Assembly (NCBI GenBank): GCA_011773465.1
Contig: WVXO01000066.1
Coordinates: 1 to 60,557, forward strand
DNA: 60,557 bases
Origin: Candidatus Aminicenantota bacterium
Lineage (GTDB): Bacteria; Acidobacteriota; Aminicenantia; Aminicenantales; Aminicenantaceae
Reading direction: 5' to 3'
Shown: in pieces, positions 2,080 to 38,352 of the stretch
Position numbering within the stretch: position 1 is the stretch's first letter
How the letters are laid out: every line of letters starts with the position of its first letter
Notes under the pieces: generated by a model
What the model was told of the DNA's origin: nothing
Database searches by the model: none
The model's input: only the letters and a program-made list of their open reading frames with translations
Translations under genes and position numbers: made by a program

Positions 2080-3852
2080 TTATTTTATTGATTCTAATAT
2101 TTCTTTTACTTTTGCTTCCTCTTTTCCGCCAAGATAAAGATATCTTTCAAAATGATATACAGCTTTTTTGGTGTTTTTTTGATCTAAATAGATTTTTCCT
2201 ATCTCGTAATAAAGGTCGGGCTTTCCAGGCTCTATTTCAACAGCCTTTTCGAAATGTTCCAGAGCTTTTTCACTCTGGTTTCGCTGGAGATAGAGCCTTC
2301 CTAAGCCGTCATGAGCCTTGGCTGAAACAGAAGCCTTAAACACCGTTACAGTTCTGGTTAGCTCGTCTTCTGAGGCCTTTTCTTCTTTCCTAACCTTTCT
2401 TACTTTTTCTCCGCTTATGGCATTCTTCCAACTCTCCTCGGCATTATCTAAATCTCCCATTGCAGAATAGACACATCCCAAATTGTAGTGGCTCAACGCA
2501 TCTTTGGGACCAATATCCATGACTTTTTTGTAAGCTATGATGGAATTTTCATAATCCTGCAATCTGAAGAATATGTTTCCGATCAGGTCGTAGGCATCCC
2601 TGAAGTCCTCCTTGAGTTCTGCGGCTCTCCAGGCGTATTTTATAGCTTTTCCCAGATCATTGTTCATACGATAGAAATTAGCAAGGTTGTAATTCAGGTC
2701 AGGAGAGAGGTCGTGAATTTCTAGAAAAATGCGAATCAATCCTATTGCCTTGCCCAAATGTCCTGACCTTAGAAGAGAAAAGGCAGATTCATTCATTACG
2801 CTTATGATGTGGTTTATATCTGACCTAAAATCATATTTGTATTCTAAATCAACCCTATCCACTATATTTTTTGTTATCGTTGGTTTATCTTCTTTTTTTT
2901 GTATTGATTTTTCATTCGAAGACCGGTCCAACAAAAACATAGCTTCATAGTCGAAAGGGATTATATTTAGGACTCTTTTAAACAAAGGAGTGGCTTTTTT
3001 GAATTCGTTCTGGTTGAAATATATCTTGCCTAAATTTTTTGCTGCCTCAACTTCATACGGTCTAAGCTTGAACGCATTTTCAAAGCAATAGACAGCCCTC
3101 TCTATCTCTCCAAGATGATAATAGGCATATCCCATTAAAAAATAAAAATCGGATTTAGAATCCTCTATCTGTAACGCAATCCGTGACTTCGCCAATCCTT
3201 CTTGCCAGTTTTCTCTTATAAGTTCTATATCTATCAATTGGGCTTTACAATCAACAGAGCTGTAGCCTTTTTTTATAGCTTCGTTAAAGTTTTCTTCTGC
3301 TTTGTCAAAATTTCCGCGTTTTTTGTGAAGAAACCCGAGAACAAAGTAGGGCAGGCCTAAGTTGGGATTTTTTTTGCGAACTTTATCAAAGAAATATTCG
3401 TAATTTTCCTTGAATTCGTACATGCCTTTTTTGCTCTTTAAATCCAGTTTTTTCTTCTTTGCTTCTTCTCTGAGAGCTTTTTCAAGGAGTTCGTCAAATT
3501 CCTGGCATAGTTTTGCAGCCTCTTCGTATTTCTCCTGATGAAAATAGATGTATCCTAAAAGGATGGATGCATTAAGGTTATCAGGGAAAAGAGTGAGCTC
3601 TTCCTTTAAGACTCTTATCGCATCTTCATATTTTCCCAGCCTGAAATAGGCAAATCCCTGATGTGCTCTCACATCTTTTTGGTTCGGATTGGCTGAGAGG
3701 GCTTGGTCGAAATAGCCGATAGCTCGCTCATATTCAGTAAAATCCATGCTCTGGTGTGCTTTTTTAATTAAATTTTCTTTTGGATAGACGACAGTGCAGA
3801 CACTCACCAGGAGAAAAATTAAGGAAAGGATTATTGGTATCCTTCTATTCAT
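2080..3852 (-). CDS. Large secreted or membrane-anchored TPR protein, paralogue of the 30.5 kb gene
   Basis: The 590-residue product begins with a signal peptide or anchor (about residues 5-23, rich in I/L/V/F). Tetratricopeptide-like repeats follow across most of the protein (for example blocks ending in ALSANPNQ, LTLFPDN, AFKLRPYE and AVEIEPGKPD). It is probably a periplasmic scaffold; no enzymatic domain is visible. The gene at 30502-32259 encodes a protein of the same size and order of repeats, with shared stretches such as KEELxLFPDN, LIGNIxFxxxDYExS and LGxIYFxQxxFExA, so the two are paralogues. It stands alone, divergent from the RAYT unit immediately to its right. The biological role is unknown. 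Confidence 0.8.
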   Translation of the reverse strand: MNRRIPIILSLIFLLVSVCTVVYPKENLIKKAHQSMDFTEYERAIGYFDQALSANPNQKDVRAHQGFAYFRLGKYEDAIRVLKEELTLFPDNLNASILLGYIYFHQEKYEEAAKLCQEFDELLEKALREEAKKKKLDLKSKKGMYEFKENYEYFFDKVRKKNPNLGLPYFVLGFLHKKRGNFDKAEENFNEAIKKGYSSVDCKAQLIDIELIRENWQEGLAKSRIALQIEDSKSDFYFLMGYAYYHLGEIERAVYCFENAFKLRPYEVEAAKNLGKIYFNQNEFKKATPLFKRVLNIIPFDYEAMFLLDRSSNEKSIQKKEDKPTITKNIVDRVDLEYKYDFRSDINHIISVMNESAFSLLRSGHLGKAIGLIRIFLEIHDLSPDLNYNLANFYRMNNDLGKAIKYAWRAAELKEDFRDAYDLIGNIFFRLQDYENSIIAYKKVMDIGPKDALSHYNLGCVYSAMGDLDNAEESWKNAISGEKVRKVRKEEKASEDELTRTVTVFKASVSAKAHDGLGRLYLQRNQSEKALEHFEKAVEIEPGKPDLYYEIGKIYLDQKNTKKAVYHFERYLYLGGKEEAKVKEILESIK

Positions 3853-4989: not shown

Positions 4990-6777
4990 AAAAGGATACG
5001 GAATTTTTCAATCATTGCCCATATCGATCATGGCAAATCCACCCTGGCTGACAGGCTCTTAGAGAGCACAGGAGCCCTCTCTCCTCGAGAACTAAAAGAA
5101 CAGGTGCTTGATACGATGGAGCTTGAGCGGGAAAAGGGAATCACAATAAAAGCTCAGACAGCCCGCCTTCGGTATAAAAGCTTATCGGGCGAAGAATACA
5201 TCCTCAACCTGATTGACACTCCGGGACACGTTGATTTTTCTTATGAAGTTTCCCGGAGTCTGACTGCCTGCGAAGGAGCGCTCCTCGTCATCGATGCTTC
5301 CCAGGGGGTTGAGGCTCAGACTTTGGCCAACACCTATCTCGCCCTCCAGAACGACCTTATCCTTATCCCAGTCATCAATAAGATTGACCTGGCTGCGGCC
5401 AATCCAGAGCTGACGCTTGAGCAACTGGAAAATATTATCGGGATAAAGCGTGAAGAAGCCATCCTGGTTAGCGCCAAAAAGGGAACAGCCATTGACCAAG
5501 TCCTGGAGAGCATAATCAGCCGCATCCCTTCTCCCCGGGGCAATCCAGACTCTCCTCTAAAAGCTCTCATCTTCGACTCCTGGTTTGACTCCTACCGCGG
5601 AGTTATAATCCTGGTGAGAGTTTTTGACGGGATACTTCGGACTGGAACTCAGGTAGAGCTTATGGCTTGCGGTGCTTCATACGAAGTGGAGGAAGTGGGT
5701 TTCTTAACTCCCAAGCCTCAAAATGTAGAGCGCTTGGGTGCTGGAGAAGTGGGATACGTGATAGCGGGCATCAAGGAATTGAGTCATGCTAGAATCGGGG
5801 ATACGATCACAGAAAAGAAAAGAAGCGCTGTCAGAGCCTTGCCTGGTTTTAAAGAGGCAAAGCCTATGGTTTTTTGCGGGATGTTTCCCGCCGGAGAGAG
5901 CAGTGTGGATGACTTAAGGAAGGCTCTCCAAAAGCTGAGGCTCAATGATTCTTCCTTCCAGTATGAGCCTGAGAATTCTCCAGCGCTGGGTATGGGATTC
6001 AGGTGCGGTTTTTTAGGTCTCCTCCACAGGGAGATAGTCCAGGAGAGATTGGAAAGAGAATTTGATTTGAACCTTATCACAACTGCCCCGAGTGTAAGCT
6101 TCAGAGTCACCGGCAAGGACGACAAGGTTAGAGAAATCCATAATCCATCACAACTTCCTCCTCCTCATCAGATAAAAAAGATCGAGGAGCCGTTTCTTGA
6201 AGCTTTGATCATAACGCCTGATAAGTATCTGGGGGCTGTGCTCAAGCTTCTGGAAAGTCGGCGAGGAGAACAGAAGAAGCTGGAGTACATCAGTACTCAG
6301 CGCATCTTTTTAACCTATCTTCTCCCTCTGAATGAAGTCGTCATGGATTTCTACAATCAACTTAAATCTGTATCGCAGGGCTATGCTTCTATGGATTACG
6401 AGTTTGCTGGATTTAGAGAATCTCCTCTGGTCAAGCTGGACATCCTGATAAACAGAGAGGCTGTGGATGCTTTTTCTTTAATCGTCCATAAGGATAAAGC
6501 TTTCCCCCGGGGAAAGATGCTTGTGGAAAAGATGAGAAAGCTCATCCCCCGTCAGCAATGGGAAGTTTCTCTGCAGGCTGCCATAGGCAAGAGAGTGATC
6601 GCCCGGGAAACCATAAAGCCCTACCGGAAGGATGTTCTGGCCAAGCTCTATGGAGGAGACTACACAAGAAAGATGAAACTCCTGGAAAAGCAGAAAACAG
6701 GCAAAAAAAGAATGAAAAAGATAGGGCGGGTTGAAGTCCCTCAGGAAGCCTTCCTCGCCCTCCTTGAGATTAAATAA
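4987..6777 (+). CDS. Elongation factor 4 (back-translocating GTPase LepA)
   Basis: LepA binds ribosomes and remodels stalled or mistranslocated complexes; it hydrolyses GTP. All GTPase motifs are present: P-loop AHIDHGKST near the N-terminus, switch motif [16 protein letters not shown] and NKID for guanine specificity. Family-specific features include [25 protein letters not shown] and the Lys/Arg-rich C-terminal domain ending [14 protein letters not shown]. Length (596 aa) is the normal length. The start ATG lies 5 nt after the transposase stop codon, inside the border of the RAYT unit, and [18 protein letters not shown] matches the usual N-terminus, so the coding sequence itself is undamaged by the insertion. 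Confidence 0.97.
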
Positions 6778-30501: not shown

Positions 30502-32259
30502 ATGGCTAAAAAGATTTTGCTGGTTCTTTTAGTAATTTTTTTCTATGGGAGTTATATCTTATATTCTCAATCAGCTGAAGATGCAATTAAAACTGCAGAC
30601 CGTTTAATGTATTTACTGAATTATACGGACGCTGTTCGTTATTATAATCAGGCGCTTGAAAATAATCTCAATATAAGGGGAGCAAGGGTAAACCTGGGAT
30701 ACGCATATTTGCGGCTAAAGAAGCAAGATGAAGCAATAAGAATATTAAAAGAAGAACTAGCACTTTTTCCGGATAACCATGAGGCTTACATACTTTTGGG
30801 ATATATTTACTTTAAGCAAGATAAATTCGAGGAGGCAAAAGAAGTCTGTGAGGCTTATGACAAGGAGTTTAAGACATATCTTCGGGAGAAAGCTTATAGG
30901 ATGGGATTCACAGTTCCATTGCAGGTAATAGATATAAGGCTCCCCCACATTTTGGCAGAAATAAAAAAAGAAAATCCCAATATTGGATTGCCCAATTTCG
31001 TTCTAGGTCTTTATCATAAAAACAAATTGAGTTTTTCAAAAGCAGAAAACCATTTCAAACTGGCCCATAAATGGGGTCACAATCCCATCGAGTGCTATCT
31101 TCAATTGATAAATATTGAATTAATTCAAAAAAAATGGAAAGACGCATTAAATAAGACACAAGAAGCATTGAGAATGAAAGGTCCTGAACCTGAGTTTTAT
31201 TTCATCATGGGGTATATCTATTGCCAACTCGAAGAAACTGAAAATGCCATTTCGTGTTATGAACAAGCCCTTGAGATGAAACCTTATTTGATTGAGACGA
31301 TGAGAAATTTATCCATCCTTTACTACGATCATCAAGAACTTGAGAAGGCATCCCTTTTATTTGAAAAATATCTCAGGATCAAAAGTTATGAACTTTATGA
31401 AAAGTATGATCTTAAATACTCATTATCGGACTTAGAATTGAGTAAAGATTTAATAGATCAGATGGACGTAGAATATATATTTCCGTTAAAGAACGGTGGT
31501 GAGGATAGCTCTAAGATAATCAATTATAGAGCTTTATCTCTGGTTAGGAGTGGACGATTAAAGGAAGCCGTACAACTCCTTTGGGATTATCTTAAGATTG
31601 ATGACAGATCTGCGAAGCTAAATTATAACCTTGGACAGCTCTATAATATCTTTAATAAATTAGATAAAGCTCTAAAGTACGCCTTGAGAGCAGTTGAACT
31701 TGACCTAAATTTTAAGGATGCTTATGACTTAATCGGCAATATCTATTTTAAGATGAGAGATTACGAAAGATCCGTTGTAGCATATAAAGAGGTTATCATG
31801 ATTCGCCCCAAAGATGCCATGGGATACTATAATTTGGGATGCGTTTATCATGCTGCAGAAAATTTTGATGAGGCTGAGAATTGCTGGAGGAACGCGATCA
31901 AATATGAAAAAGGAATAAAAAAAATCAAAGATAGAGATAAAATCTCAGAAGATGAACTTTCTGTGTCTTTGGTTGTTCTTAAAAAGCCTGTTTCTTTTCG
32001 AGCGCATAAGTCCTTAGGGAGGTTGTATCTTGAGAGAAATCGTCCTGATAAGGCCCTGGATGATTTTCAAAGAGCAATCGAGTTGGAGCCTAGTGATCCA
32101 GAACTATATTATGAATTAGGAAAGATTTATCAAGCTAAATCAGAGCATGATAAAAAATATATCGAGAAAGCGATTTATTATTACGAGAAATACATTTATT
32201 TTGGGAAAGATAAAGAGCAAGAAGTTAAAGAATTATTAAAGAAGTTAAAAAAGAAATAA
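30502..32259 (+). CDS. Large TPR protein, paralogue of the 2-4 kb gene
   Basis: After a hydrophobic signal or anchor (about residues 4-22), TPR-like units run through the whole 585 residues (LGYAYLRLKKQDEAIRILKEE, LNYNLGQLYNIFNKLDKAL, LYLERNRPDKALDDFQRAIEL and others). No catalytic domain is visible. Sequence and repeat order match the protein encoded at 2080-3852, so they are ancient duplicates in one chromosome segment. The gene precedes the M1-type peptidase gene (186 bp), which itself ends in TPR-like repeats, so these may work together in the periplasm. Function is unknown. Confidence 0.8.
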   Translation: MAKKILLVLLVIFFYGSYILYSQSAEDAIKTADRLMYLLNYTDAVRYYNQALENNLNIRGARVNLGYAYLRLKKQDEAIRILKEELALFPDNHEAYILLGYIYFKQDKFEEAKEVCEAYDKEFKTYLREKAYRMGFTVPLQVIDIRLPHILAEIKKENPNIGLPNFVLGLYHKNKLSFSKAENHFKLAHKWGHNPIECYLQLINIELIQKKWKDALNKTQEALRMKGPEPEFYFIMGYIYCQLEETENAISCYEQALEMKPYLIETMRNLSILYYDHQELEKASLLFEKYLRIKSYELYEKYDLKYSLSDLELSKDLIDQMDVEYIFPLKNGGEDSSKIINYRALSLVRSGRLKEAVQLLWDYLKIDDRSAKLNYNLGQLYNIFNKLDKALKYALRAVELDLNFKDAYDLIGNIYFKMRDYERSVVAYKEVIMIRPKDAMGYYNLGCVYHAAENFDEAENCWRNAIKYEKGIKKIKDRDKISEDELSVSLVVLKKPVSFRAHKSLGRLYLERNRPDKALDDFQRAIELEPSDPELYYELGKIYQAKSEHDKKYIEKAIYYYEKYIYFGKDKEQEVKELLKKLKKK

Positions 32260-32445: not shown

Positions 32446-34464
32446 ATGAGCTATGCGAAGGGACTAAGGGTGCTGTTCCTTGCGCTCTTATTTCTTGGGG
32501 GTTGGTCATTAAGAGCATTTTCTCAAAGTGACTATGATTACGTACCAGGCATGGAGAAGTTTCCAGATATTGACATCACAAACTACGACCTTCGGGCAGA
32601 ATTTTGGTCAAATTCAATCACGGTTAAAGCAAAGGCTGTTGTAGAGTTTGAAATAAAAGAGGCGAAGACTGATCTTGTGATTTTCGAAATGGACCGGAGG
32701 CTCAAAATTTTGGAAGTATTCGACGGGAATAGAAATCCGCTCAAGTTTAAACAGCCAAAAGATTCTGACTACGTTGTTATTCATCTTGCCAATTCTCTCC
32801 ATAAAAAACAACGAGGCAAGATTGAGCTGGATTATGATTGTCATTTTCCTCCGCTTAAAGAGGTAAGTTCTGATACAAAATCTGTTTCTGATACCGGCCA
32901 AAAAATCTATTTCTTTTTGCGCAAGTGGTATCCGGTAAACGATTATTTCTGTGATCAGGCTCCCGCAGATTTCACCTTCATCCTGCCCGATGATTATGAA
33001 ATTGTGACCAGTGGCCATGAGGTATCGTCTGAAATTAAAGGCAATCGAAAGATATCCCGATGGAGAAGTTTTGATTCATCAAACTTCTACTTTTTGTTTG
33101 CAGGGCCGTTTATTCGGTACGCTTTTGAGAAGCAATCGCCCAAGATAATCATATACATGGACGGAGAAGACTATAAGGTTGCTCAAGCTGCAAGGGACAA
33201 AGCCATAAAAATCCTGATGTATTATGAAAATCTTCTCTGCCCTTATCCATACCCTGTGCTTTATCTAGTGACCGCTGACTCCAAAATCAACCCTGTTGGC
33301 CTTAATGGTCTGACTTATATTGACTTTGGACAATTCTCGCGTCGATACAGATACTTTGAATGGACGTGGAGCCATGAGTTGGCTCATCACTGGTTTGGAG
33401 GTGTTGTCAGCCCGAAAACCCCTGAAGATTATTGTTTTTTAGCAGAAGCTCCAGCTGAATATTTGTCCAGACTCTATATCCAGTCCATCAAAGGAGAAGA
33501 GCAGTTTAGAACGGATCTTGAGGTGCAAAGAATGATTGCCCTCAGAGGCCGTGAGGTTGTCCCTTTAACAAAATACTATACTCTGAAAAAAGGCGGTGAT
33601 TTTCTTTATGCTAAAGGATTTTATGTGTTACACATGCTTCGAAACATCATGGGAGAGGAGAAGTTCTTTAGTATGATGAAAAATCTTGTTGAGAAATTTT
33701 ACATGAAGCCTGCAGGAATCCGAGATCTGCAGAATTTGGCTGAATATATTTACGGTCAATCACTTGATTGGTTCTTTGATCAGTGGGTGTCTTCCACCGG
33801 AATTCCGGAATATGATTTTTCGTATCAGACCGATTTGGAGGAGAACGGAAAATATAGAATTTCTGGAATCATCAGACAGCGATTTGCAAATTTTAGGATG
33901 CCTGTAGAAATCATGGCTATAAGTGGTGATAATAAGGATTCATTCAAAGTCCTGGTGGGACATAAAGAGAATCTCTTTCAGTTTGATGTTTCTTTTAAAC
34001 CTGATATGGTTGCGTTGGACCCTGAATTTAAAATCCTTCGTTGGAATAGAGGCATAAGAGTCTGGATATACACCTCGCAGGCGAGAAAACTAAAGCGGGA
34101 AAAAAAATATAATGAGGCAAGACAATTATTGGAAAGAGCACTTGCCATTAATCCTAGATGTTCTTGGGCAGCCTTTGTGCGTGCTGATATGGCTTTTGAT
34201 CTTGAGCAGTATGAATTCGCTGTCCAATGTCTTATTCGTGCGTTAGATGGAGATATGGATTTCCATATGATTCCCTGGTCTGAACCACTCATGAAGCAGG
34301 TGATATACTTTTTGCAGGGTTTGTCATATGATTTATTGGGCCAACGTCAGGATGCTATTGCCTGCTATAAAGAGGTTATCGCCATGGGGCGTGATCTTCA
34401 GTATTCAATATACTACGACGACGCCAAGAAGTATAAAGAAAAGCCTTATTCTAAAAAGAAATGA
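32446..34464 (+). CDS. M1-family (gluzincin) metallopeptidase with C-terminal TPR-like helices
   Basis: The zinc site is HELAHHW (H310, E311, H314) with the third ligand E334 in LAEAPAEYLS; here the gap between H314 and Glu is one residue longer than the usual 18. The catalytic Tyr is probably within LYAKGFYVLHML. The GAMEN-like motif is replaced by NPVGLNGLTYI, so aminopeptidase specificity is uncertain. A signal peptide (about residues 8-26) points to export. The last 120 residues form two or three TPR-like units (LKREKKYNEARQLLERALAI). Start is at a GTGCGATG context without a strong ribosome-binding site. The propeller regulator begins only 19 bp downstream. Confidence 0.8.
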   Translation: MSYAKGLRVLFLALLFLGGWSLRAFSQSDYDYVPGMEKFPDIDITNYDLRAEFWSNSITVKAKAVVEFEIKEAKTDLVIFEMDRRLKILEVFDGNRNPLKFKQPKDSDYVVIHLANSLHKKQRGKIELDYDCHFPPLKEVSSDTKSVSDTGQKIYFFLRKWYPVNDYFCDQAPADFTFILPDDYEIVTSGHEVSSEIKGNRKISRWRSFDSSNFYFLFAGPFIRYAFEKQSPKIIIYMDGEDYKVAQAARDKAIKILMYYENLLCPYPYPVLYLVTADSKINPVGLNGLTYIDFGQFSRRYRYFEWTWSHELAHHWFGGVVSPKTPEDYCFLAEAPAEYLSRLYIQSIKGEEQFRTDLEVQRMIALRGREVVPLTKYYTLKKGGDFLYAKGFYVLHMLRNIMGEEKFFSMMKNLVEKFYMKPAGIRDLQNLAEYIYGQSLDWFFDQWVSSTGIPEYDFSYQTDLEENGKYRISGIIRQRFANFRMPVEIMAISGDNKDSFKVLVGHKENLFQFDVSFKPDMVALDPEFKILRWNRGIRVWIYTSQARKLKREKKYNEARQLLERALAINPRCSWAAFVRADMAFDLEQYEFAVQCLIRALDGDMDFHMIPWSEPLMKQVIYFLQGLSYDLLGQRQDAIACYKEVIAMGRDLQYSIYYDDAKKYKEKPYSKKK

Positions 34465-34483
34465 TTCCTCGATTGAGCAATTC

Positions 34484-37228
34484 ATGCCTTTGAAAAAAAA
34501 TAAATCGCGCCGGGCCTGCCTATTTTTTCCACTCTTCTTTTTTTCCTTCATTCTGGTGTCAAACTCCCTTTTCTCTTTGGACCCCAAAAAAGAGCTTAAG
34601 GAATACTTCCTCAGGAATTGGACGGTTCAATCGGGATTGACACTTAATACCGTAACCGCGCTCGTCCAAACACAGGACGGCTATATCTGGGTTGGCACTG
34701 GCGCTGGACTGTCCAGGTTTGATGGTGTCCGATTTAAATCTTTTACAAAACAAAATTCACCTCTGTCGAATGATAGTATCACTACCCTGTACGAGGATGC
34801 CAACGACGTGCTTTGGATAGGTACAGACGGTGGCGGTCTTTATTCCTACGAGAAAGGGCTATGGAAAAATTTTACCATGAAAGATGGATTATCCAATGCG
34901 CACGTGCGGACGATAATCGGTGATTGGAAGGGCGATCTTTGGGTTGGAACTGACTACGGACTGAATCTTATCAGTCAAAATAGCTTTCATGTCTATACCG
35001 AAGAAGACGGGCTGTATGACAGCATCATTACTGACCTCTGCATTGACAGTTGGGGAACGCTATGGATAGGCACGATGCGAGGAGGCCTGGCCAGGTTCAA
35101 TGAAGGAATAATTGCCGTTTATGGTTACGAGGAAGGACTCTTGAACTCATCGGTCCAATCACTGACTGCTGATCGTGCGGGCAACATATGGATAGGTACT
35201 CTGGAAGGCCTGTATCTTTTAAGAAGCGGAGATGGGATCATCCGTTCCGTATTTGGCACGCGCTATACGCCCCTTACATCTCTGCTTGAGGATAACCAGG
35301 GAAACCTTTGGATGGCGACCATGGCTGATGGCCTGAAGCGAATGATCGGAGGTATACTGACAGGATTGTCAACAGATGAAGGTCTGCCCGACGACTTCAT
35401 CCGTTGCCTTTTGGTCGATCGGGATGAAAACATTTGGATTGGGACGGATATTGGAGGCCTCGTCCAGCTCAGAGATCCTGCAGTGACGAATATCACTAGA
35501 GAAAACGGAATTCCCGAGAGAGCTGTTTCAGCAGTGATGGAAGACCGCCAGGGATTTCTCTGGGTCGGGACAAGAAACAGCGGTCTCTGCAAGATGAAAA
35601 ATGGCAGAGTCGTCGAAACCTTCGATGCCAAAACAGGGCTTTCCTCCAAAAGAGTCAGGGCTCTCTTAGAGGACAGTAGCGGAAATATCTGGGTCGGAAC
35701 AGAGGACGGCGGGCTCACAATCCTGCAAAACGGACGGTGGAATAAGCTAAACTCAGACAGAGGATTGAGTTCGAATAATGTGACGTGTTTTCTTCAGGAC
35801 AGAAAGGGCATCATCTGGATCGGGACGGATAAAGGATTGGACAGATTCCGTGACGGAAAGATTGAGCCTGCCGGAGGCCTTGCAGGCCTGGCAGGATACC
35901 ATGTGCGAGTTTTGCTGGAGACTTGTTATGGTTTGCTTTTGGTCGGGACGAATCAAGGGCTGTTTAAAATATCCGAAATGGAGGTTGAAAAAATAGAATT
36001 CACCCGGGCTGATTCCGAGCCGGAGATTGTCTCCCTGTATGAGGATGCTGAGGGAATACTCTGGATAGGGACCAAAGGGGAGGGCCTGTTGCGCCGGGAT
36101 GAAGCAGAAACGATGGCCTTTACTACAGGCGAGGGATTAACGGACAATTATATCTATTCTTTAACAGAAGATGGGCACGGAAACCTGTGGATGAGCACCA
36201 ACAGGGGAGTCATGCGAATAAGCCTGAAGGTAATGAATGATTATATCCAGGGAAAAATTCGTTATCTGGCACCAGCTCTTTTTGATGAAGCCGGGGGCAT
36301 TGCCGGTTCTCAGTGCAGTGGAGAAGGCCAACCTTTAGTCTGGAAGAATGGTGATGGCAGGCTTTATTATCCGACCGCGAAAGGAATAGTTGTATTCGAT
36401 ACGGCAAAAATTGGAGTCAAGACGGTCCCTCCCCTGACGCTAATCGAAGCCGTGCTGTGCGACGGGAACCCGGCTGAGACCTACGGCGCCCCTTGTTTTC
36501 CCTACAGGTCCGGATCTTTAGAATTTCATTTTACAGCTCTCGACTTTCGAGCTCCTGAAAAAATTCGCTTCAAGTACAGATTGGAAGGCCATGACGAAGA
36601 ATTCGTGTATCTTCCCCTCACCGCAGAACGTGTCGCCAGGTATGTGAACCTGGCTCCGGGAGAATACCGCTTTACGGTAAAAGCCGCAAGCAACGACGGA
36701 ATCTGGGATGAAAACGGCGCTTTTTTTGTGTTCGAGATTCTTCCCTCTTTTTTTCAGAAGCCAGTGTTTTATGTCCTTGTTGTCCTGGCTCTCCTTTCCG
36801 TTGCTGGAAGCGTGCTCCTCGTCAGTCATCAGAGGAGGCAAAGGAGGCGCCGCGACAAATACAAAACAATCCCGATTGATCCGAAAAGAATAGAGGATGT
36901 CATTACAAAGCTTCTTCATCTTATGGATGAAGAAAAGCTTTTTCTCGATCCTGACCTGACACTCAACAAACTCTCTCTCAAGTTGAGGGTCCATTACAAC
37001 CACCTGTCCCGTATCATCAACGAGCGTTTCGGACTGAGCTACAGTGATTTCGTCAATAAATACCGGATCGAAGAGGCCAGGAAGAAACTGACATCTTCCG
37101 AGGAGAAAGAAAGCACGATGCTGGATATTGCGTACAGCACAGGATTCTACTCCAAATCCGTGTTCAATGCGGCCTTTAAAAAATTCCTGGGCATGACTCC
37201 GACGGAATACCGCAAGAAACACCTCTAG
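34484..37228 (+). CDS. Membrane one-component regulator: periplasmic WIGT propeller fused to AraC-type DNA-binding domain
   Basis: After a signal peptide (about residues 10-30) there are 13 visible propeller repeats of the W-x-G-T type (WVGTGAGLSRF, WIGTDGGGLYSY, WIGTKGEGLLRR and others, about residues 40-590), then a Y_Y_Y domain (FRAPEKIRFKYRLEGHDEEF), one transmembrane helix (VFYVLVVLALLSVAGSVLLV, about residues 760-780) and a cytoplasmic AraC HTH pair (LSLKLRVHYNHLSRIINE and IAYSTGFYSKSVFNAAFKKF). There is no histidine kinase or receiver, unlike hybrid two-component systems with the same sensor. The chosen start is the ATG 19 bp after the peptidase gene; further upstream the frame only overlaps that gene. 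It may sense a glycan or peptide and directly bind DNA. Confidence 0.88.
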   Translation: MPLKKNKSRRACLFFPLFFFSFILVSNSLFSLDPKKELKEYFLRNWTVQSGLTLNTVTALVQTQDGYIWVGTGAGLSRFDGVRFKSFTKQNSPLSNDSITTLYEDANDVLWIGTDGGGLYSYEKGLWKNFTMKDGLSNAHVRTIIGDWKGDLWVGTDYGLNLISQNSFHVYTEEDGLYDSIITDLCIDSWGTLWIGTMRGGLARFNEGIIAVYGYEEGLLNSSVQSLTADRAGNIWIGTLEGLYLLRSGDGIIRSVFGTRYTPLTSLLEDNQGNLWMATMADGLKRMIGGILTGLSTDEGLPDDFIRCLLVDRDENIWIGTDIGGLVQLRDPAVTNITRENGIPERAVSAVMEDRQGFLWVGTRNSGLCKMKNGRVVETFDAKTGLSSKRVRALLEDSSGNIWVGTEDGGLTILQNGRWNKLNSDRGLSSNNVTCFLQDRKGIIWIGTDKGLDRFRDGKIEPAGGLAGLAGYHVRVLLETCYGLLLVGTNQGLFKISEMEVEKIEFTRADSEPEIVSLYEDAEGILWIGTKGEGLLRRDEAETMAFTTGEGLTDNYIYSLTEDGHGNLWMSTNRGVMRISLKVMNDYIQGKIRYLAPALFDEAGGIAGSQCSGEGQPLVWKNGDGRLYYPTAKGIVVFDTAKIGVKTVPPLTLIEAVLCDGNPAETYGAPCFPYRSGSLEFHFTALDFRAPEKIRFKYRLEGHDEEFVYLPLTAERVARYVNLAPGEYRFTVKAASNDGIWDENGAFFVFEILPSFFQKPVFYVLVVLALLSVAGSVLLVSHQRRQRRRRDKYKTIPIDPKRIEDVITKLLHLMDEEKLFLDPDLTLNKLSLKLRVHYNHLSRIINERFGLSYSDFVNKYRIEEARKKLTSSEEKESTMLDIAYSTGFYSKSVFNAAFKKFLGMTPTEYRKKHL

Positions 37229-37440
37229 ACAAGAAAAATCTATAAGGGGCAAAGTTCCTTTTAAACATTACATACCGTTTCCTTTTTTCGGAGACCCATG
37301 GTCTCAGCAGCCTTCATCCCTTTTTCGGATTGAGCGTACGGAATCTCAATTTCGGACGACAGCTTCGGTTGAATAGAGTAGATTAGGACCTAGATGTTCA
37401 AAATAAACCTTAATAATCACTAAAGGAGGAAGAAAGAAAA

Positions 37441-38352
37441 ATGAAAAGGACCAAAATCATAATTTTGCTGTTTATTTTTATGAGTTTTATGGTTTCAGCC
37501 GCTCTCCTGGCTGCGCCGGAGGAAAAAGTCGAAAAGACGTTCAGCAAGAAAGATGAAATCCGCTTCAAGCTCGTCCTGGGTGATTGCCAGCTGAAAAAGA
37601 GCGCTGACAGCCGCATTCATGTTCATCTTGTCTATTCATACGAGCCCGATATGTCGTATGAGCCCAGGATCAAAGAGAGAGGCGACACGCTCTATCTGGA
37701 AGAAAAGATGCGGGGGAATAATCCCAAAGGTTACTCTACATGGACGGTTGAAGTCCCCGACGACATCGAAATAGATTTTAAGTCCGCCACAGGCAACTTG
37801 GCTGTCGAAGGTGTGAAGATCGAAGTCGACGGAAATACCGGTACCGGTGATATCCAGTTCAACAAGGTTAAAGGGGAATACGACGTCAGCACTGGAACTG
37901 GAAATATTGAAGTTTATGAATCCCAAGGCGAGTTTGATGTCAGCTCTGGCACCGGAAGAGTAAAGATTAAGAATAGCAAAGGCAATTTCGATGCCAGCAG
38001 CGGCACCGGATCGGTGAAGGCAGAAGGACTCACAATCGATGTTGATGGAGATTTCAGCTCGGGCACGGGTGATGCGGAGGTATCTTTTCCGGACGGAACG
38101 GATTTTGAACTCACGGTGAGCTCAGGAACCAACGATGCAATCCTCAACATGAACGGTAAACAGTTTAAAGGCTATTTTGAATTTACCTGTCATGCACGTA
38201 GAGGGCGTATCGTCTGTCCGGTCAAGTTTGATAAAGAAGAAGAATTTGAAGGGAATGGCCAGACATACTTCCGGAAATCCTTCACCAAAGGGAAAGATGT
38301 TCCCAAGATCTACATCAAGACCGGAACTGGCAAAGCCAGACTGAACAAATAG
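37441..38352 (+). CDS. DUF4097-type beta-helix protein, exported
   Basis: A signal peptide (about residues 4-25, ending ALLAAPEE) precedes a right-handed beta-helix or repeating beta-strand region with a clear internal repeat: TGTGNIEVYESQGEFDVS, SGTGRVKIKNSKGNFDAS and SGTGSVKAEGLTIDVDG (about residues 140-205). DUF4097 proteins are surface or periplasmic; their exact role is unknown. The start is preceded by AAAGGAGG 8 nt upstream. The gene lies 212 bp after the regulator and might be its target. Length (303 aa) is normal for the family. Confidence 0.85.
   Translation: MKRTKIIILLFIFMSFMVSAALLAAPEEKVEKTFSKKDEIRFKLVLGDCQLKKSADSRIHVHLVYSYEPDMSYEPRIKERGDTLYLEEKMRGNNPKGYSTWTVEVPDDIEIDFKSATGNLAVEGVKIEVDGNTGTGDIQFNKVKGEYDVSTGTGNIEVYESQGEFDVSSGTGRVKIKNSKGNFDASSGTGSVKAEGLTIDVDGDFSSGTGDAEVSFPDGTDFELTVSSGTNDAILNMNGKQFKGYFEFTCHARRGRIVCPVKFDKEEEFEGNGQTYFRKSFTKGKDVPKIYIKTGTGKARLNK

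Follow-up and report, generated by a model that had tools for sequence, protein, structure and literature searches.

The window, the whole stretch of 60,557 nucleotides analyzed here, comes from a Candidatus Aminicenantes MAG (81% complete) and carries a gene for a membrane regulator between a peptidase gene and a DUF4097 gene. The features are as follows.

32446 to 34464, + strand: M1-type peptidase with TPR, adjoining the regulator but not conserved with it (Pfam, locus survey)
34484 to 37228, + strand: gene of the propeller-Y_Y_Y-TM-AraC regulator, 914 aa (ORF calls, Pfam, own models, AlphaFold2)
34505 to 34567, + strand: N-terminal hydrophobic helix, signal peptide or anchor, aa 8-28 (hydropathy and helix in the model)
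34592 to 36403, + strand: β-propeller sensor region, ∼aa 37-640 (Reg_prop; Foldseek to 4a2m/4a2l, aligned to the BT4663 double propeller)
36545 to 36739, + strand: Y_Y_Y domain, aa 688-752 (Pfam 1.4e-12)
36761 to 36838, + strand: transmembrane (TM) helix, ∼aa 760-785 (hydropathy and structure model)
36839 to 36979, + strand: juxtamembrane arginine-rich hinge and helix, aa 786-832 (pLDDT <50 at 789-797, helix 800-815)
36980 to 37216, + strand: AraC-type DNA-binding domain (HTH_18), aa 833-911 (Pfam 2e-18; trees)
37229 to 37440, + strand: conserved intergenic region, candidate target promoter (identity to two G032 copies)
37335 to 37366, + strand: 32-bp conserved block, candidate operator (sequence conservation)
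37441 to 38352, + strand: DUF4097 protein with a signal-peptide-like start, candidate target gene (Pfam 6.4e-9; 83% identical G032 orthologue)

The regulator frame is open throughout and ends in a TAG stop codon. Its start at 34484 is backed by DNA homology beginning at 34477 in two orthologous loci, and an alternative longer ORF, from 34328, runs into the peptidase gene. Because orthologues exist and the dN/dS against the nearest of them is 0.22 (0.16 for the HTH part), the gene is not a chance reading frame. As an earlier sequence-only reading had stated, the peptidase gene ends 19 bp upstream (at 34464) and the DUF4097 gene follows downstream.

Pfam detected Reg_prop in the regulator at 2.1e-65 over 11 stretches, and a propeller model seeded on the same protein returned 13 repeats, the number given in the sequence-only reading. 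In the genome as a whole, Reg_prop gave nine matches at E ≤ 0.001, all within this gene, and no second gene with Reg_prop was found at that threshold in the 81% complete MAG. HTH_18 and HTH_AraC (the latter at 6.6e-12) both exceed their curated cut-offs (66.9 versus 33.6 bits and 45.7 versus 26.6 bits), which marks the domain as an AraC/XylS DNA-binding domain. HisKA, HATPase_c, and Response_reg were absent at E ≤ 0.05 (Pfam), and kinase and receiver models of our own, seeded on one hybrid two-component system (HTCS; L053) and iterated over loci, likewise found nothing. The AlphaFold2 model (alignment of 22 proteins; mean pLDDT 86.7) places the TM helix at 760-791 and the AraC helices from 800 onward, joined by a hinge of low confidence at 789-797, so that no further domain fits between them. 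No hidden or degenerate kinase was found by Pfam, the own models, or the AlphaFold2 model, and the claim that the sensor is joined straight to an AraC domain was confirmed by the same domain search. The protein thus combines in one chain a DNA-binding domain and at least one TM helix, lacks HisKA, HATPase_c, and a receiver, and in these respects is one-component; it has the periplasmic Reg_prop propeller and Y_Y_Y sensor of HTCS but not their histidine kinase core and receiver. The best PDB matches of the sensor in Foldseek are BT4663 and BT3049, with TM-scores by target of 0.76-0.80; both solved relatives are periplasmic parts, and BT4663 functions in heparin sensing. BT4673, the next match, fits poorly over its whole length (TM-score by target 0.47).

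To place this architecture in its lineage, 142 genomes of its class were searched with a Y_Y_Y-TM-AraC profile built from 11 kinase-less relatives; up to 16 candidates were scored per genome, and the counts are lower bounds among the matches listed. Some match at 1e-20 is present in at least 86 of the 142 genomes. Contiguous matches, defined as starting no later than profile column 12 and reaching at least column 290, number at least 76 in at least 33 genomes, the own genome and a broken copy in G007 included, with up to 10 in a single genome (G113) among those listed. At least 69 of the 76 are each contained in one frame of 880-1000 aa, and these come from at least 31 genomes; one stop falls within the matched stretch in 11 of the 69, and the window regulator shows one as well, its end codon. 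Eight further genomes were reached through loci, and contiguous matches occur in at least two, both Bacteroidota (Puteibacter, G142, and Bacteroides cellulosilyticus, G145, among the matches listed). Ten kinase-less relatives (eight from the Aminicenantes group, two from Bacteroidota) were scanned individually: Reg_prop, Y_Y_Y, and HTH_18 are present in every one, and kinase and receiver domains are absent from all of them at E ≤ 0.001. Other propeller proteins of the group bear kinase outputs, and among ten without kinase or AraC by our own models, six end in GGDEF (L008, L014, L021, L022, L023, and L026), three in LuxR-type GerE and one, L015, gave no output domain. The propeller-AraC design, presented earlier as special, is therefore ordinary within its lineage. 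A split frame in relatives, named in the sequence-only reading as a refuting result, gives a mixed picture: the G007 copy (L152) has stops and lacks ∼110 residues, and L032, which seems to be the copy of G003, stops at residue 408 near a contig end, but the 69 matches above lie in single frames.

The proposed partnership with the DUF4097 gene receives moderate support, in that the gene, the intergenic region, and the 32-bp block are all kept in the one intact close orthologue, G032. The intergenic region is identical to the two G032 copies at 169/199 (84.9%) and 152/185 (82.2%) positions, above the identity at fourfold sites of the regulator (239/343, 69.7%). With three mismatches or fewer allowed, a search of seven genomes gave one copy of the block in G000, two in G032, and none in the other five. 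Among 60 genomes, the 83% DUF4097 orthologue is found, the own genome aside, only in G032, where an aspartyl protease gene lies between regulator and DUF4097 gene; weak matches (27-29% identity) occur in three further genomes of the 60. Neither G003 nor G007, which both have a broken regulator, yielded the orthologue, and neither did G034, where a contig end cuts the regulator; the link is one of two genomes versus two, all MAGs. Scans of 37180-37480 for sigma-70-like promoters and for terminators were both empty, those of L151 4450-6200 gave two promoter-like sites and a single terminator-like one, a yield not above that of shuffled sequences, and neither of the two orthologous regions showed the direct repeats of the intergenic region at 37229-37440. 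We infer the target of the window regulator from conservation alone; the likeliest in this genome would be the promoter of the downstream DUF4097 gene.

At the G032 locus, the promoter region together with the signal-peptide start is duplicated (L151:4501-4787 and 5936-6219, 86.8% over 288 columns). One copy precedes an aspartyl protease with PDZ and the other the DUF4097 protein, two proteins that are not related.

The surroundings of other propeller-AraC genes bear on what might be sensed. With one locus scanned per Bacteroidota genome, that of B. cellulosilyticus (L163) lies near a TonB-dependent receptor, SusD, GH127, and an alginate-lyase-family gene, and that of Puteibacter (L164) near GH31, fucosidase, and NPCBM genes. 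Within the class, selected neighbors were scanned at 18 loci (L145-L162): a TonB_C gene stands directly beside the propeller-AraC gene in three (L154, L155, and L160), and an outer-membrane barrel gene (OMP_b-brl_4) is adjacent in three (L145, L148, and L153). As the genomes of L154, L155, and L160 contain few TonB_C matches (4, 6, and 10), the three adjacencies look unlikely by chance, for a pattern that was noticed after the fact and in which L154 and L155 come from one family; barrel genes are more frequent than TonB_C genes. The scanned neighbors of L146, L147, L156, L158, and L159 show no uptake theme, and class neighbors off this theme comprise metallo-β-lactamase, aldo/keto reductase, transglutaminase, PDDEXK transposase, and AAA-ATPase. 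Neither a glycan enzyme nor a TonB-type gene lies beside the window regulator. Taken together, the Bacteroidota glycan neighbors and the TonB_C and barrel adjacencies favor the sensing of imported oligomers and the control of local envelope genes.

Alongside the observed domain order, recurrence, purifying selection, and conserved downstream region, we consider it likely that the protein is a one-component transmembrane transcription regulator, with a periplasmic sensor and a tethered AraC domain acting on a local promoter. The periplasmic double β-propeller and HTCS-type Y_Y_Y domain would bind a ligand, most likely an oligosaccharide or other polymer fragment taken up through the envelope. 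The signal would pass through the Y_Y_Y domain and the single TM helix to the membrane-tethered AraC domain, which starts ∼20-50 residues in from the membrane on the cytoplasmic side, depending on where its edge is drawn. Presumably as a dimer, the AraC domain would then bind DNA and switch a local promoter, in this genome most probably the promoter of the DUF4097 gene. A variant in which the signal sets off proteolytic release of the AraC domain, in the manner of regulated intramembrane proteolysis, could make use of the arginine-rich hinge predicted with low confidence at 789-797, between the TM helix and the DNA-binding domain. We judge it unlikely: the TM-to-HTH distance is held at 20-32 aa across 22 Aminicenantes-group proteins (fragment L051 and broken copy L152 included), as a tether predicts, versus 426 aa or more in HTCS, and no shared membrane protease stood out, on casual view, among the neighbors.

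The ancestry of the DNA-binding domain was examined in two trees, whose rows were collected partly by similarity to the window regulator and so carry a sampling bias. In the first, of 72 rows, one group gathers the 17 HTCS domains (97/92) and another joins the kinase-less propeller proteins to multi-TM membrane AraC proteins (97/95). The second has 96 rows and 103 columns, with poorly supported deep forks (52/83); in it, a branch 1.33 long (100/100) sets apart the 17 HTCS rows together with L180 and L186. Outside that branch lie 22/22 propeller rows of the Aminicenantes group (counting L051, from an Acidobacteria MAG) and 10/11 from Bacteroidota. Several labels in the 96-row tree were set by hand: L051 (fragment), L152 (broken copy), and the pair L177 and L185, in which no more than 2 and 3 repeats were detected, as propeller proteins, L027 and L087 as multi-TM proteins; L186, L187, and L188, without repeats by our propeller model, were labeled "other", and L040|256 in the trees is a multi-TM fragment. 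On this phylogeny, the DNA-binding domain of the regulator appears to fall outside the HTCS clade, among one-component membrane AraC proteins. Because its HTH falls there, a fusion of sensor and effector seems a better description of the regulator than an HTCS that lost its kinase. A constrained tree joining the 19 HTCS-branch rows to five rows of the regulator's subclade was not rejected by an AU test (p 0.536) and in fact scored 1.98 log units better; the trees thus speak to the domain's place outside the HTCS clade, not to the nearest kin of that clade. A juxtamembrane KYxxSxL-like motif was rejected as a marker, the counts not being clean (14/22, 20/38, and 5/11 versus 4/17 in HTCS).

A protein of B. 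cellulosilyticus (L180:1064-3991) is a kinase-less propeller-AraC protein whose HTH is nested among HTCS HTHs, and it is likely a real kinase loss.

That the window regulator is itself an HTCS from which kinase and receiver were deleted, left as a working remnant or in decay, is in our view very unlikely. Such an origin would fit its HTCS-like sensor and the broken look of two close relatives (L032/G003 and G007), a loss of this kind seems to occur, as in L180, and the HTCS branch as sister is compatible with the AU test (p 0.536). However, the regulator HTH lies outside the HTCS clade, dN/dS is low over the whole gene and lower still in the HTH part, and the same design is widely expanded; the trees lend kinase loss no support.

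The peptidase gene was followed across loci and genomes. An M1-like gene (phmmer E ≤ 1e-6) is present at none of the 21 other surveyed loci (L145-L164 and L032), where flank lengths vary and several contigs end nearby. In a set of 41 genomes that does not include G032, an M1 peptidase at E ≤ 1e-40 occurs in two, the own genome and, as a 174-residue stretch, G016; four same-genus genomes searched have none. At L032, from a same-genus relative, the regulator comes directly after an aminotransferase gene with a gap of ∼120 bp, where the window has a 4.3-kb TPR-M1 block; homology between the two resumes 7 bp upstream of the regulator start codon, and an upstream region common to L032 and G032 (118/152 bases) is absent from the window. 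A sensor-peptidase unit responding to peptides, as the sequence-only reading had proposed, is compatible with a one-component regulator and has in its favor the same-strand M1 gene at a 19-bp gap, the class relative L153, where an M14 carboxypeptidase gene lies at two genes' distance beyond the barrel gene, and the aspartyl protease gene behind a copied promoter at the G032 locus, but we regard it as most improbable and find it unsupported by the locus survey, the genome search, and the 4.3-kb block, the M1 gene not being conserved beside the regulator.

The canonical M1 exopeptidase motif is GxMEN. The corresponding region of the window peptidase (32446-34464) seems to read VGLNGLTYID, and the enzyme may not be a classical aminopeptidase. 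A stretch paralogous to it (59%) lies on G000:C32, and the window encodes two related TPR proteins, at 2080-3852 and 30502-32259 (phmmer 2e-150).

Membrane one-component regulators are an accepted class, with 50,302 members reported in 9,673 genomes, and Y_Y_Y is given for 7.7% of transmembrane transcription regulators, or TTRs (PMC10269533). Like the window regulator, TTRs unite a DNA-binding domain and TM helix in one protein with no two-component core; a protein of this kind would act on DNA from the membrane. The main text of the same article makes no mention of propeller, Reg_prop, or AraC (PMC10269533). A 2008 study reported that Saccharophagus degradans has membrane-bound AraC regulators in the vicinity of cellulose-degradation genes (PMC2386152); the likeness to our regulator is by description, membrane-bound AraC being the authors' own account. 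AraC domains held side by side are described in another study as activating transcription (PMC11253607). The multi-TM membrane AraC proteins of ∼380 aa (L068, L070, and L088) belong to the same AraC subgroup and have TM near the HTH, but sense through several TM helices, whereas the regulator senses through a propeller. SusR of B. thetaiotaomicron resembles it, again by description, in having a membrane location, a periplasmic sensor, and a cytoplasmic DNA-binding part, and its DNA-binding domain is stated to have no significant similarity to other known transcription factors (PMC3878776). GdpX2 and GdpX3 of Xanthomonas oryzae are reported to carry the same Reg_prop-Y_Y_Y head on a non-kinase output, which is GGDEF, unlike the AraC of the regulator (PMC6637768); the same swap is seen in the window regulator's group. 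Titles and abstract starts, with few subscription journals covered, yielded no paper on a kinase-less propeller-AraC regulator. The regulator joins the known membrane one-component class as a new member that bears an HTCS-type sensor.

A wider reading, possible but tentative, is that the Aminicenantes propeller-Y_Y_Y unit is a general head placed on AraC, LuxR, GGDEF, or kinase outputs, that the kinase is dispensable because coupling can be direct and mechanical, that a kinase-free counterpart of HTCS has expanded here, and that the promoter-leader cassette of G032 may be a portable module recruiting exported targets. The Bacteroides HTCS (BT4663, BT3049, and BT4673) share with the regulator a double-propeller and Y_Y_Y sensor, a TM helix, and an AraC-type output, BT4663 reaching a TM-score by target of up to 0.80 against its sensor; in contrast to them, the regulator has no detectable histidine kinase or receiver, and its DNA-binding domain lies outside their clade. 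Large propeller sensors known as HTCS heads thus also sit directly on DNA-binding domains, and this direct joining spans Aminicenantes and Bacteroidota, a Bacteroides among them, making the kinase-less propeller-AraC proteins a natural control for what the phosphorelay adds in HTCS.
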